The notes under the pieces were generated by a model. That model worked only from the letters and a program-made list of their open reading frames with translations. It made no database searches and was not told the origin of the DNA. Shown piece by piece: positions 5,540-61,210 of a stretch of 64,000 nucleotides of DNA (position 1 is the first letter of the stretch; every line of letters starts with the position of its first letter). The stretch is from Ptychodera flava (taxonomy: Eukaryota; Hemichordata; Enteropneusta; Ptychoderidae): NCBI RefSeq assembly GCF_041260155.1, contig NW_027248277.1, positions 25,556,322 through 25,620,321 on the forward strand, given 5' to 3'. The position numbers and the translations under genes were made by a program.

Positions 5540-5694
5540 ATATGCCAGCGTCCTATTGGATGACTTGGAATATAGAATATTTTTTATCTGTGTTCTTCTG
5601 TAACTCTTTTTTCATAAAAGCCGGGAACGGTATCTGCATACCTCTTATAAACAAGGACCCTGAGACACATCAGGAAAACGTGTCAGAACCTTCG
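5540..5694 (+). promoter_or_regulatory. Copy 1 promoter and noncoding first exon
   Basis: An inverted CCAAT box (ATTGG, 5555-5559) lies about 55 bases upstream of a TATA-like CATAAAAG (5613-5620). The following GAGACACATCAGG segment matches the first exons of the other copies and ends at a donor G|GTAAGT after 5694. The start site should fall near 5645. Copy 2 has the same arrangement, with identical CATAAAAGCCGGGA, at 26990-27151. There is no ATG-led frame continuing into the coding exons, so this exon is taken as 5' UTR. Confidence 0.65.
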
Positions 5695-5737
5695 GTAAGT
5701 GTGTTTTTCTAACTTTCTGTAGACTTCGTCAGGCCTG

Positions 5738-8432
5738 TAACAACCGATAACATAGTAACTTACCGATAACGTATCAAACCGGATAGCGTAGTAAAAATTA
5801 ACCGATGACGTAGTAAATCAACCGATAACGTAGTAATGAACCAATAGCGTAGTAATTTTTTCTAACCGATAACGGAGTAAACATTTACCGAATAACGTAG
5901 TAATTCTTCCTAACCGATAACGTATCAACAAATTTACCTATAACGTATATGAACCAATAAAGGATTCAATTAAACCCGATTAAGTCAACTAGCGGTGCAT
6001 CATAACTACCGATAACCTATGAATTAACTTATAATATCTAATGAAGCTATGCACGGAGAACGATAGATCGATCGATTTACAGACAGATAGATATTAGATA
6101 GGTAGATAGAAAGATAGACAGATAAAATGGTCGATCAATGAATTGATAGATAAATCGGTCTCACAATCTATAGGTCCATCCATCTATGTATCAATGTTTG
6201 ATAGATGGTCGTCGATCAATCTATCAATTGATCGATAGATAAATTGATAGATCGATCGATATAATGAAGGATATATCAATTTGATAGAAAGATAGCTCAA
6301 TTAATCGAAAGATCGATTGATCGATTCGATAAACTGGTCAATAGATAGATAAATAGATCAATAGGGCGAACTGTTATCACATTGTCTCGTACTCAATTTT
6401 ATTTTCTTTTATTTATTTTTTTCCGTTTAGCATTATTTGTAATAAATTGTTGCAGCAATTCAATTGTGTTTTGACAGTTTTTTTTATGTTTGTACGAACG
6501 ACTTAGTTGATCTAACTGTTGTTAAACTACTGAAATAGGTTTGGGAAGTTGTTTCTAGTCTTACTATAGTAGTTATACAGTTTAGTTCTAGTTGCGTAAA
6601 ATTCAAAGGTATTGTATTAGTACTAATGAAACAGGGGCAGGGGAATGGTGCTGTTGGTTTACACAGAGAACCCTGCCTAAAAAGAAAACTATGTATTGGC
6701 TGGCTACAATAGCAAGATTAGAAACAAGTTTCTAAACCCATTTCGCTAGTGTTGCAACATTTAGATCAGGTTAGTCGTTCGTGCTGCAACAAAAAGTTGT
6801 AAATGCAAGTCGTTGGAATACTTTGCTTCGCATAAAAATAGGATTATCAAAAAATATTTTCAACAAAGTAATCGAAGCAACTACAAAACGGAAGTCCCTT
6901 TTTCCTTCCAAAGTATCTTAGGGTCTAGAAGACCAATTGCAATACCGAAATCACCGACAGCCAGTATCGCAAACTTTGCACACATATTGGATTCGTCACC
7001 GATAGAAGTAACTACAGATGATTTTTCATGTTCTTGAAAATCTCCATCGGGTGTATTTGAAAAAGTTAAGCATATTAGTGTTACTATGCAGGAACCTACT
7101 ATAAATGTATAAGTAAACTCTTGTTTAAGCGTTTTTTGTTTTGTTTTTGTTTTCGATCAGCACTAACAGTTCACTATACTATGTACGACTACTTTTTTTG
7201 CGATGTTTCCGTAATCCTACTTAAAATAAGATGTGACGATGTGAATCACGGCAGAAAGGATAAAGAGGAAAGAAAAAGCAATATGTTGTCTACAAAATCT
7301 GTTGACAGGGCTTTATAAATTTTAATTATAAGGAATTCAATTGAACAGTGAGTCAAGGTTTACCTGTAATTCAGTCCCAGTATGAGAGTAACATTGTAAA
7401 CACTTTTTGTCATTCTGATATACTAACGTTGAGAGTAACGGAACTTTATCGTCGGTCATGTTTAAATCTTTTTCCAAGTCCCCCCCAAAAAACTTATAAG
7501 GTGTGTCTAAAAAGACACTCATATGTGTGTTGTATCTTAAATTCATCCTGCCGGAATACTTATTAATAAGTTCTCATTTTCCAATAATGGATGAAATTCG
7601 ATTCGTAATGTCTGATTAATATCACGGAAAAAGAAAACTCAATGTTTATGTAAATCTAACGGTGTAATTGATTAATTTTGAATATGAAATGAAAGCTACA
7701 ACCCTCATTTATCTTCAGTTTCCTTTTATTTATACGGTATTGGTGGATTGGTAACTTAATTGTTGACTTAATGCATTAAAAGCTTGTTTGGAAACTTGAC
7801 TTTTTGACTTGGCTATGTTATTTGTTGATTTGAGACATTATTGGTTGATTTAATACGTCATCGGTTGATTAACTGTTCACTTGGCTACATTAAGGGTGGA
7901 AGGGATACAATATTTCTCTATTTATCTATCCGTCGATAGATCTACTTATCCATATATATATATATATATATATATATATATATATATATATATATATATA
8001 TATATATATATATATATATATATATATATATATATATATATATATATATATATATACGGCCGTAAATCGTTCTGCCATACAGGTATTGAACACTTTTACA
8101 CCGTGAAGATTTCCGAACTTCGATAGAAATATCGATCGATTGATATGTCAGCACATCGATCGATCTATCGATTGATCAAAAGATTGATCGATCGATCGAG
8201 GATAGAGCTATCACTATGAATTTATTCCCATTAATAACTCCATCAAATACATTATCAGTTGATTTGATACGTTATCGATAAATTTGTTTTTACGTTATCG
8301 GTTAGAAAACATTAATATGTTATTGGATCGTTAGTATGTTGCAGGTTGATTTTCTACGTTTTCGGTTATTTTTTTACTACGCTATCAGGTTTGTTACGTT
8401 TTCAATTGGTTACCACATTATCTGTTGTAACA
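5738..8432. mobile_element. 2.7-kb foldback-like element with arrays of ACCGATAACGTAGTAA repeats
   Basis: The ends are imperfect inverted repeats (TAACAACCGATAACATAG at left; reverse complement of right end TGTTACAACAGATAATGTGG). Each arm holds degenerate tandem units of AACCGATAACGTAGTAA (5740-6020, inverted at 7740-7890 and 8240-8430) and then GATA/GATC-rich simple sequence (6060-6370; 7915-8215, split by an AT tract at 7952-8056). AGGCCTG flanks both ends (5731-5737 and 8433-8439) as an apparent target duplication. The centre (about 6400-7690) has only short frames, such as 6792-7037 +, with no recognised domain. It lies in intron 1 of copy 1. Confidence 0.65.
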
Positions 8433-8518
8433 AGGCCTGCTATACAAAATGTGCACAGCGTTTATTTATAGCAATTCATACGCAAATATGTAACAAAAAA
8501 TTAATACCTTGCTTACGA

Positions 8519-60200: not shown

Positions 60201-60257
60201 GGCAAACATAAATATATCTGCTCGATCTTCGAGGCCGATCTTGACGTAGAGTCCTAG
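54280..60257 (+). CDS. Array copy 6: secreted eight-cysteine protein, 190 aa
   Basis: The coding exons are 54280-54591, 55125-55229 and 60102-60257 (TAG), phase 0. The signal peptide is MRFTFAITILAVTYA. All eight cysteines are kept, with C-F-K-C in the middle exon, GPYIGKSK at the end of the first coding exon, and YWNPPGKIT and FCMYR in the last. The ALPDKIK block is changed to ALPVTIGD, the largest difference from copies 1-3. Intron 3 is about 4.9 kb because it holds a TTAA MITE 15 bases after the donor, a Penelope-like element and a LINE nested in it. A possible AATAAA lies at 60530-60535. Both splice sites of the enlarged intron are canonical, so the gene may still be expressed, but this is an inference. 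Confidence 0.78.
55245..55436 (+). mobile_element. TTAA MITE family M4, copy A
   Basis: TTAA ends enclose AGGTATACAGTCACCTG and, at the right as complement, AGCTATACTGTCACCGG. The centre holds a short self-complementary GGCGCTTTTT...AAAAAGCGCC. It matches 62253-62443 inverted. Paralogous introns show the empty target (GCTATTTAAACG in copy 1, GCTACTTAAATG in copy 2). Confidence 0.75.
55845..57185 (-). mobile_element. Penelope-like retroelement, C-terminal part
   Basis: The long minus frame 56107-57003 carries, in order, KVYETSGLNQVW, FDFFTLYTTIPHDKL, YFSNNKDAQHKYTDEE, MGKNCAPLLAGLFLYSYEAE, FNKTHRYID, SSSYFDL and YRRACDSYTDFQIRHS. These are the RT motifs typical of Penelope-like elements. Beyond 56107 the C-terminal block GYTTKRFVRTFKKLYGRY and a 3' tail reach to about 55845. 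Its N-terminal side was displaced by the LINE and continues at about 59547-59800. No GIY-YIG endonuclease domain is visible. The copy is broken. Confidence 0.75.
57190..59546 (-). mobile_element. CR1/Jockey-group LINE, 5'-truncated, nested in the Penelope-like element
   Basis: Minus-strand frames: 59097-59516 is the linker before the RT, starting KSNTWLSRGLLKSINTKHKL and containing EEFNEYFTSVG. The RT is 58233-59039, with NYRPISVLPVFSKIVE, FGFRKKHST, AFDTINHDIM, GVPQGSILGPILFLLYINDI and the catalytic FADDT. The post-RT region is 57632-58219, with YLGVILDQHLTWKAHI and MLWNKLPDSIK. Frame breaks separate the three parts, and the endonuclease domain is absent. The 3' end is near 57190, where the minus strand ends in repeated TGAACTGATC units. 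Target duplications were not resolved. Confidence 0.8.
59547..59800 (-). mobile_element. N-terminal side of the interrupted Penelope-like element
   Basis: The minus strand contains FFNLGGPIGKSM and a following VVFPAGKAS..NNIIFVF-like block, matching the start of Penelope-like RTs and the corresponding part at about 17740-17830. The boundary to the intron of copy 6 lies near 59800. Confidence 0.55.
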
Positions 60258-60439
60258 AACGATGCATATATATATGCCAGATGGATTTCGTATTGATACA
60301 CTACTTCATTATTACTCATTATATTACAGACGACAATGTAATCTTTTCAGCAAAAATGGGATTTTACTATACAAATTGACTGAGAAATATATATAACGGT
60401 CATATTGCTGTTTCAGAAAGCGAGGGCAAGACGATGTTT

Positions 60440-61210
60440 GTTCCATAAGTAAATCACGCGACTTGGAAAATCCTAAAACAAAACCCCGGATAATTGTGAA
60501 AAACCTTGAAGTTCCTTAGAGTTCCTTGTAATAAATAACAAATTTGCTGTGCAAAAACATTCGAAAGATGGAAACTTTCAAAAACGTATACCGATTTGTA
60601 TGAACTCGATCGCTATCCTACCCTGACCTCGTGACTGCCAATATATATAAATATACCTTAATAGCTATGCAGATCAACTTCAGTTAACTCGTTAGTTTAA
60701 AAATTGAATGGTTTTAGCATTCCTGAAGCGGTCATAAATACCCGATTCAGTAGACTGAACTTGTTGAGATAATAATGTCCTTTTTCACTTTGTTACCTGC
60801 CATGAGGTGCTAAGTTCCTGTCAGGAAGTTCAATTGAAGGTCAATACAAGGGTCAGTCGTGTGGCAAGTGCATGGTGCATTCTTTTTCTCGGTGAATTTG
60901 CGCTCCTTTTATCCTGTAAGTCATAGAAATCGAAGCTTCAAACAGTGGCAAATACACAGATGTCAGTTTTTAAACGTGTCATTGTGTTATTACATCAACG
61001 CAGTATGTAAGAAAAACTGTACATTTGTTTCATGATGTCTTGAAAGTACAAGGTAATTCCGCCACGATGTGATTTCACTGTAGTCAAAAATGGAAACCTC
61101 TACAATCTGAGTGAATAAAAAAACAAGCCTTCCCTTGCGCTTATTCAGAAAACTCGCCCTTGATAAAATCGAATTTAATTATATTCTTAGCATTATATTC
61201 ATAATATATT
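60440..61210 (+). repeat. Downstream flank of copy 6
   Basis: 60480-60640 matches 50170-50340 and, more weakly, 48120-48300; 60880-61210 matches 1840-2190. It marks the end of array units. From 61211 to 62250 I see no gene. Confidence 0.5.

Follow-up and report, generated by a model that had tools for sequence, protein, structure and literature searches.

Gene Organization of the Array

The DNA considered here, called the window below, is a stretch of 64,000 nucleotides from Ptychodera flava (assembly GCF_041260155.1, contig NW_027248277.1, positions 25,556,322 to 25,620,321 of the forward strand). It harbors a tandem gene family, lying on one strand (+), whose products are probably secreted proteins with eight cysteines each. 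Four genes, c1 to c4, appear intact and three further copies, p38, p46, and p49, are broken (Table 1).

Three predicted coding exons can be placed to the base in each of c1 to c4, which yields gene models that can be tested. The splicing is predicted from splice signals: a GT donor and an AG acceptor, both read in the sequence, border each of the eight coding introns, all of which are in phase 0. Coding exon 1 measures 318, 315, 315, and 312 bases in c1, c2, c3, and c4, respectively, coding exon 2 invariably 105 bases, and coding exon 3, including the stop codon, 156, 156, 153, and 156 bases, every one of these lengths being a multiple of three. When the c1 exons were compared with the window by tblastn, the other three intact copies were recovered with E values of 3e-38 to 5e-35 (mature part of exon 1), 6e-12 to 2e-10 (exon 2), and 1e-27 to 4e-24 (exon 3), and pieces of the three incomplete copies were found at E 2e-11 or better. 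With such values exon by exon, the array pattern is not a product of chance.

A first-pass annotation, made from the sequence without database searches, had described four intact and three broken copies in tandem on one strand, with near-constant exon lengths and phase-0 coding introns. The exon searches and reading frames bear this description out, and its coordinates are correct; GT..AG is present at each of the four junctions that it had proposed (9502/10213, 27702/29827, 40030/40415, and 54591/55125). The span reported at that time, 5540-60540, covers most of the c1 upstream block (from about 5520) through an AATAAA found 273 bases past the c4 stop codon.

Table 1. Coordinates of the seven copies and of the repeat that follows them (positions in the window).
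Copy	Feature	Position	Strand	Remarks
c1	Upstream block and apparent noncoding first exon	5520..5694	+	Donor GT 5695-5696; exon start not located
c1	Gene, three coding exons	9185-12755	+	From splice signals and frames
c1	Coding exon 1	9185..9502	+	Leader, Cys 1-2, GPYIGKSK; exon probably begins 9177
c1	Coding exon 2	10213..10317	+	CxxC and Cys 5
c1	Coding exon 3	12600..12755	+	YWNPPG, FCMYR, Cys 6-8, stop
c2	Upstream block and apparent noncoding first exon	26971..27151	+	Donor GT 27152-27153
c2	Gene, three coding exons	27388-30210	+	
c2	Coding exon 1	27388..27702	+	
c2	Coding exon 2	29827..29931	+	
c2	Coding exon 3	30055..30210	+	
p38	Broken copy	37384..38980	+	Upstream block 37384-37577 (donor GT 37460-37461), exon 1 start remnant, exon 3 relic
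c3	Upstream block and apparent noncoding first exon	39248..39324	+	Donor GT 39325-39326; weaker match
c3	Gene, three coding exons	39716-41874	+	
c3	Coding exon 1	39716..40030	+	
c3	Coding exon 2	40415..40519	+	
c3	Coding exon 3	41722..41874	+	
p46	Broken copy	46006..46700	+	Upstream block (donor GT 46073-46074), exon 1 with lost frame
p49	Broken copy	48709..49515	+	Upstream block (donor GT 48827-48828), exon 1 damaged
c4	Upstream block and apparent noncoding first exon	53559..53633	+	Donor GT 53634-53635
c4	Gene, three coding exons	54280-60257	+	
c4	Coding exon 1	54280..54591	+	
c4	Coding exon 2	55125..55229	+	
c4	Coding exon 3	60102..60257	+	After 4.9 kb intron
	Pieces of the p38/p46/c4 upstream repeat	63409..63896	+	Same orientation; close to window end

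Predicted Proteins

The four predicted proteins are 190 to 192 residues long, and the other three are 61-66% identical to that of c1. Exactly eight cysteines are found in each, with a spacing (22-62-2-13-7-24-12) that is the same in all four, and the GPYIGKSK, YWNPPG, and FCMYR blocks are invariant among the intact copies. The first-pass annotation was therefore right that the cysteines and these blocks are kept while other positions vary. The cysteines, even in number and fixed in spacing, most likely form four disulfides. A hydrophobic leader is present in all four proteins, the best mean hydropathy over 12 residues being 1.9 to 2.7; its end, placed by eye, lies near Y-A|D or Y-A|S in three copies and G|G in c1. 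The family product is probably secreted. The mature protein, of about 175 residues and 20 kDa, is acidic, and its charge varies between copies (pI 4.2 to 5.4), as does the number of N-glycosylation motifs (3, 1, 0, and 0).

Decay of the Broken Copies

Among the broken copies, each of which keeps its upstream block, p38 retains a piece of the beginning of exon 1 close to 37860, without a readable frame from an ATG, and a relic of exon 3 (38849-38980) that contains an internal stop. The frame of exon 1 is lost in p46 (46395-46700), where no readable exon 2 can be found at 47850-48010; homology to the first coding intron of c4 extends to about 47880, the expected start of exon 2. In p49, exon 1 (49185-49515) lacks an ATG, has lost its frame, and is partly missing.

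Upstream Blocks and Duplication History

Regarding the sequences that precede the coding exons, the c1 upstream block (around 5520-5720, about 3.5 kb before the ATG) is 72-75% identical to that of c2 over 223-265 bases, and an exact TTTCATAAAAGCCGGG is present in both. With three mismatches allowed, two or more sites for this word were obtained in 11 of 100 shuffles; both real sites have zero mismatches. The other five copies harbor mutually related blocks, that of p38 matching those of c4 (E 5e-34), p46 (2e-19), p49 (1e-8), and c3 (2e-7). A GGTAnGT donor occupies the same aligned place in the blocks of all seven copies, in stretches that were chosen for alignment from the upstream-block matches; the + strand of the entire window contains this word 15 times. 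An AG acceptor is found 8 to 10 bases 5' of the ATG in the four intact copies (ends at 9176, 27379, 39705, and 54271). From these signals, the upstream block is predicted to combine a control block and a noncoding first exon common to the family.

The presumed first intron of c1 also contains imperfect, roughly 20-base tandem repeats (AACCGATAACGTAGTAA type), at 5741-5947 and 8247-8439, with an inverted counterpart some 2.5 kb further on.

Self-comparison of the window reveals homology between c1 and c2 well beyond the coding exons (5263-5737/26726-27194, 12545-12989/30000-30435, and 14528-14869/32368-32677). Likewise, an upstream repeat precedes p38 (36908-37273), p46 (44005-45240), and c4 (51522-52815). 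The codon likelihood of the coding tree (c1,c2),(c3,c4) is 12 lnL (log-likelihood) units better than that of either other arrangement, and this tree and the flanking homology agree in grouping. As pieces of the p38/p46/c4 repeat recur after c4, a further family unit probably starts at 63409-63896 and the array probably runs past the end of the window; alternatively, a dispersed mobile element could account for this last repeat. The first-exon donors proposed for the seven copies and the likely continuation of the array are new with respect to the first-pass annotation.

Constraint on the Mature Proteins

Codon likelihood models written for this analysis were applied to the mature protein of the four intact copies. 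With a single ratio for all sites (M0), omega is 0.54, and the two-class model M1a is better by 12.9 lnL, with 49% of the sites at an omega of 0.12 and 51% at 1. By exon, omega amounts to 0.70 (exon 1), 0.47 (exon 2), and 0.38 (exon 3). Over the whole mature protein, pairwise ratios of nonsynonymous to synonymous divergence (dN/dS) are 0.33 to 0.46 by the NG86 method, for dS values of 0.41 to 0.64, and higher, 0.46 to 0.73, by YN00. The genes look to be under selection at the protein level; exon 3 and the cysteines appear the most tightly held, the remainder loosely so. The term variable is apt for this family; an arms race is unproven.

Searches for Relatives

For the four proteins, no Pfam family was found above its gathering cut-off, the numbers of matches at E up to 10 being 0, 1, 0, and 0. 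That Pfam match, CCSMST1, reached 13.7 bits for a cut-off of 26.1 (E 0.073). In NCBIfam, the bacterial model SitA5_escort was matched by one copy of the four (E 0.031, 13.8 bits for a cut-off of 160) and was rejected. When profiles of the family were compared with PDB, CIAO1 was obtained with the full profile (E 0.16) and with the exon 3 profile (E 0.0038 summed over five stretches, best single i-Evalue 2.4); it was rejected as a chance match, because several weak stretches of WD repeats add up. No PDB match was obtained with the exon 1 profile at E up to 10. AlphaFold2, applied to the mature part of coding exon 1 from the four copies, gave a mean predicted local distance difference test (pLDDT) score of 34.3 with 89 of 89 residues below 50; no usable fold resulted, and for this reason no fold search was made with the model. 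In the IMG/VR and GTDB contigs, 118 pattern matches were found (34 + 19 in GTDB, 42 + 23 in IMG/VR), none of which was confirmed by tblastn; this says little about relatives, as the collections are viral and prokaryotic. Nine peptide strings of the family did not occur in the 5.39 million papers searched with them, and among the records listed by topic searches no title or opening of an abstract dealt with this family.

The first-pass annotation had called the family unrecognised and had suggested profile searches and structure prediction as checks. The former agree with it, in that neither Pfam nor NCBIfam provides a match above cut-off and PDB no credible one, and the latter, carried out on the exon 1 part, gave no fold. 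Unrecognised must nevertheless be taken as absent from curated families (Pfam, NCBIfam, and PDB); these libraries do not settle novelty among animal proteins, where uncharacterised relatives may be plentiful.

It can also be hypothesized that the array belongs to a known animal family too diverged for the profiles, which we consider an appreciable possibility, clearly below an even chance. In its favor, the profiles were built from four related sequences only, the collections searched were curated, viral, or prokaryotic ones, and no fold was obtained; however, the best Pfam match is below its cut-off and CIAO1 fails inspection. This hypothesis concerns identity and not role, so that it is compatible with the readings of function discussed below, and the likelihoods attributed to the different readings do not add up to a whole.

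A venom or toxin-like secretion is very improbable. A cysteine-rich tandem family with a hydrophobic leader would suit it, by composition only, but no match of any kind exceeded its Pfam cut-off and none in PDB was credible. Venom peptides are typically short and cysteine-dense; the present proteins, with about 175 residues and cysteines spaced far apart, differ from them.

Proposed Function

It can be proposed, tentatively and with a little less than even likelihood, that the array is a birth-and-death family of secreted acidic proteins, in which a fixed scaffold bears a loosely constrained surface and the members constitute an extracellular binding set for differing targets. Each working copy comprises three phase-0 coding exons, an apparent noncoding first exon, and an upstream block of its own. 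A single fixed scaffold would be maintained by four disulfides together with the GPYIGKSK, YWNPPG, and FCMYR blocks, and about half of the positions are loosely constrained, the copies differing in charge and in N-linked sugar motifs. One secretory tissue may express all the copies, from similar promoters, and the products would work extracellularly, forming a small group of binding proteins whose targets differ, most likely in a body fluid or in mucus, for defence or recognition. The defence or recognition role taken by itself is weakly indicated and rather doubtful; it is placed level with the dosage role described below and ahead of a reproductive one.

Several observations weigh against this proposal. 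Significant positive selection, as expected in an arms race, was not obtained: from M1a to M2a, twice the difference in lnL is 1.2 for the mature protein, 4.2 for exon 1, and 0.0 for exons 2 and 3 (2 degrees of freedom in each case), in a test to which four sequences give little power. In exon 1, third positions account for 0.35-0.49 of the differences between intact copies and for 0.31-0.46 of those between intact and broken copies, a modest separation; since these ranges overlap, relaxed constraint accounts for much of the variation. Furthermore, AlphaFold2 predicted no fold for exon 1, and the c1/c2 type of upstream block is joined to that of the other five copies by a single weak match (c2 to p38, 66% over 68 bases, E 0.006).

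Relaxed constraint is also central to the possibility of a dosage family, where the copies would raise the output of a single structural or carrier secretion (mucus, egg coat, adhesive, or shell or skin matrix) and their differences would come from this relaxation and not from different targets. The near-neutral state of about half of the sites, the non-significance of positive selection, and the upstream blocks recognizable in all seven copies are in line with it. A drop to 61-66% protein identity to c1, with changes in charge and sugar motifs, is however large for copies retained for quantity alone, and we are inclined to doubt this possibility. A family of seminal, egg-coat, or pheromone proteins under sexual selection is unlikely: its products would be secreted, cysteine-rich, encoded in tandem, and fast evolving, as those of the array probably are, but no pointer to expression in the gonad was found in the sequence and here again the non-significance of positive selection is unfavorable. 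Sequence alone does not decide among defence or recognition, dosage, and reproductive roles.

The first-pass annotation had read the locus as a local expansion of a secreted, disulfide-rich protein, which stands, with secretion and disulfides probable, and had hinted at immune, reproductive, or surface-mucus proteins. This hint draws on fast evolution, and an overall omega of 0.54 with no significant positive selection is as compatible with relaxed constraint as with an arms race.

To go beyond the birth-and-death proposal, the proteins may represent a lineage-restricted disulfide-rich fold without known relative, whose four-disulfide scaffold with a copy-specific surface would serve as a private extracellular recognition set; this is improbable. 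If the family is limited to a single animal group and the copies bind different targets, an undescribed scaffold would be added to the recognition proteins of animals.

Apparent Mobile Elements and Other Features of the Window

The length of the last intron of c4 is partly explained by a reverse-transcriptase frame inside it (58236-59063, minus strand; RVT_1, E 1.3e-30). Three adjacent frames in the same intron (57635-59558, minus strand) resemble, in our judgement, one non-LTR retrotransposon, with RVT_1 in the middle frame and no Pfam match in the other two. An open frame of 306 residues at 56110-57027 (minus strand), without Pfam match at E up to 0.1, presumably resembles a Penelope-like reverse transcriptase. 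One arm of an inverted pair with 85% identity (55245-55436 and 62253-62443), perhaps a mobile element, is also located in this intron.

Elsewhere in the window, long overlapping open frames on both strands are found at 1-1600, which may be an old mobile element; two of them were tested and have no Pfam match. This region (G+C content 0.40) is, as is 20001-24000, richer in G+C than the rest of the window. DUF423 was obtained for a 125-residue frame at 42880-43254 on the minus strand (E 0.034, 14.8 bits for a cut-off of 25) and is read as a chance match. Of the 28 frames listed with at least 110 residues, the Pfam scan covered 10 in all.

Comparison With Known Systems

Animal genomes commonly contain orphan tandem families of secreted proteins, so that the array alone is unsurprising. 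Pfam has models for several cysteine-rich families, namely WAP, Ly6, SRCR, nsLTP, and hydrophobins. Some eight-cysteine proteins can be compared with the products of c1 to c4 more closely. The plant eight-cysteine-motif or nsLTP proteins are also secreted and also have eight cysteines. However, the plant motif contains adjacent CC and CXC, unlike the 22-62-2-13-7-24-12 spacing, in which neither is found in any of the four proteins. Coral SCRiPs are likewise secreted, contain eight cysteines, and exist in several copies, but are much shorter than the mature proteins described here, to which they can be likened by description only.

With regards to genomic organization, tandem secreted cysteine-rich families are characterized by local copies, fixed cysteines, a changing surface, and dead copies among live ones. 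Examples are the SRCR expansions of invertebrates (PMC10855680) and the three-finger proteins of salamanders (PMC8904931), from which c1 to c4 differ in having no Pfam domain above cut-off. The array is of this general kind: its paralogues lie in tandem on a single strand, their cysteines do not vary, and some copies are dead. It resembles the birth-and-death cysteine-rich families in its local tandem copies, its fixed cysteines, its changing surface, and the dead copies that it includes.

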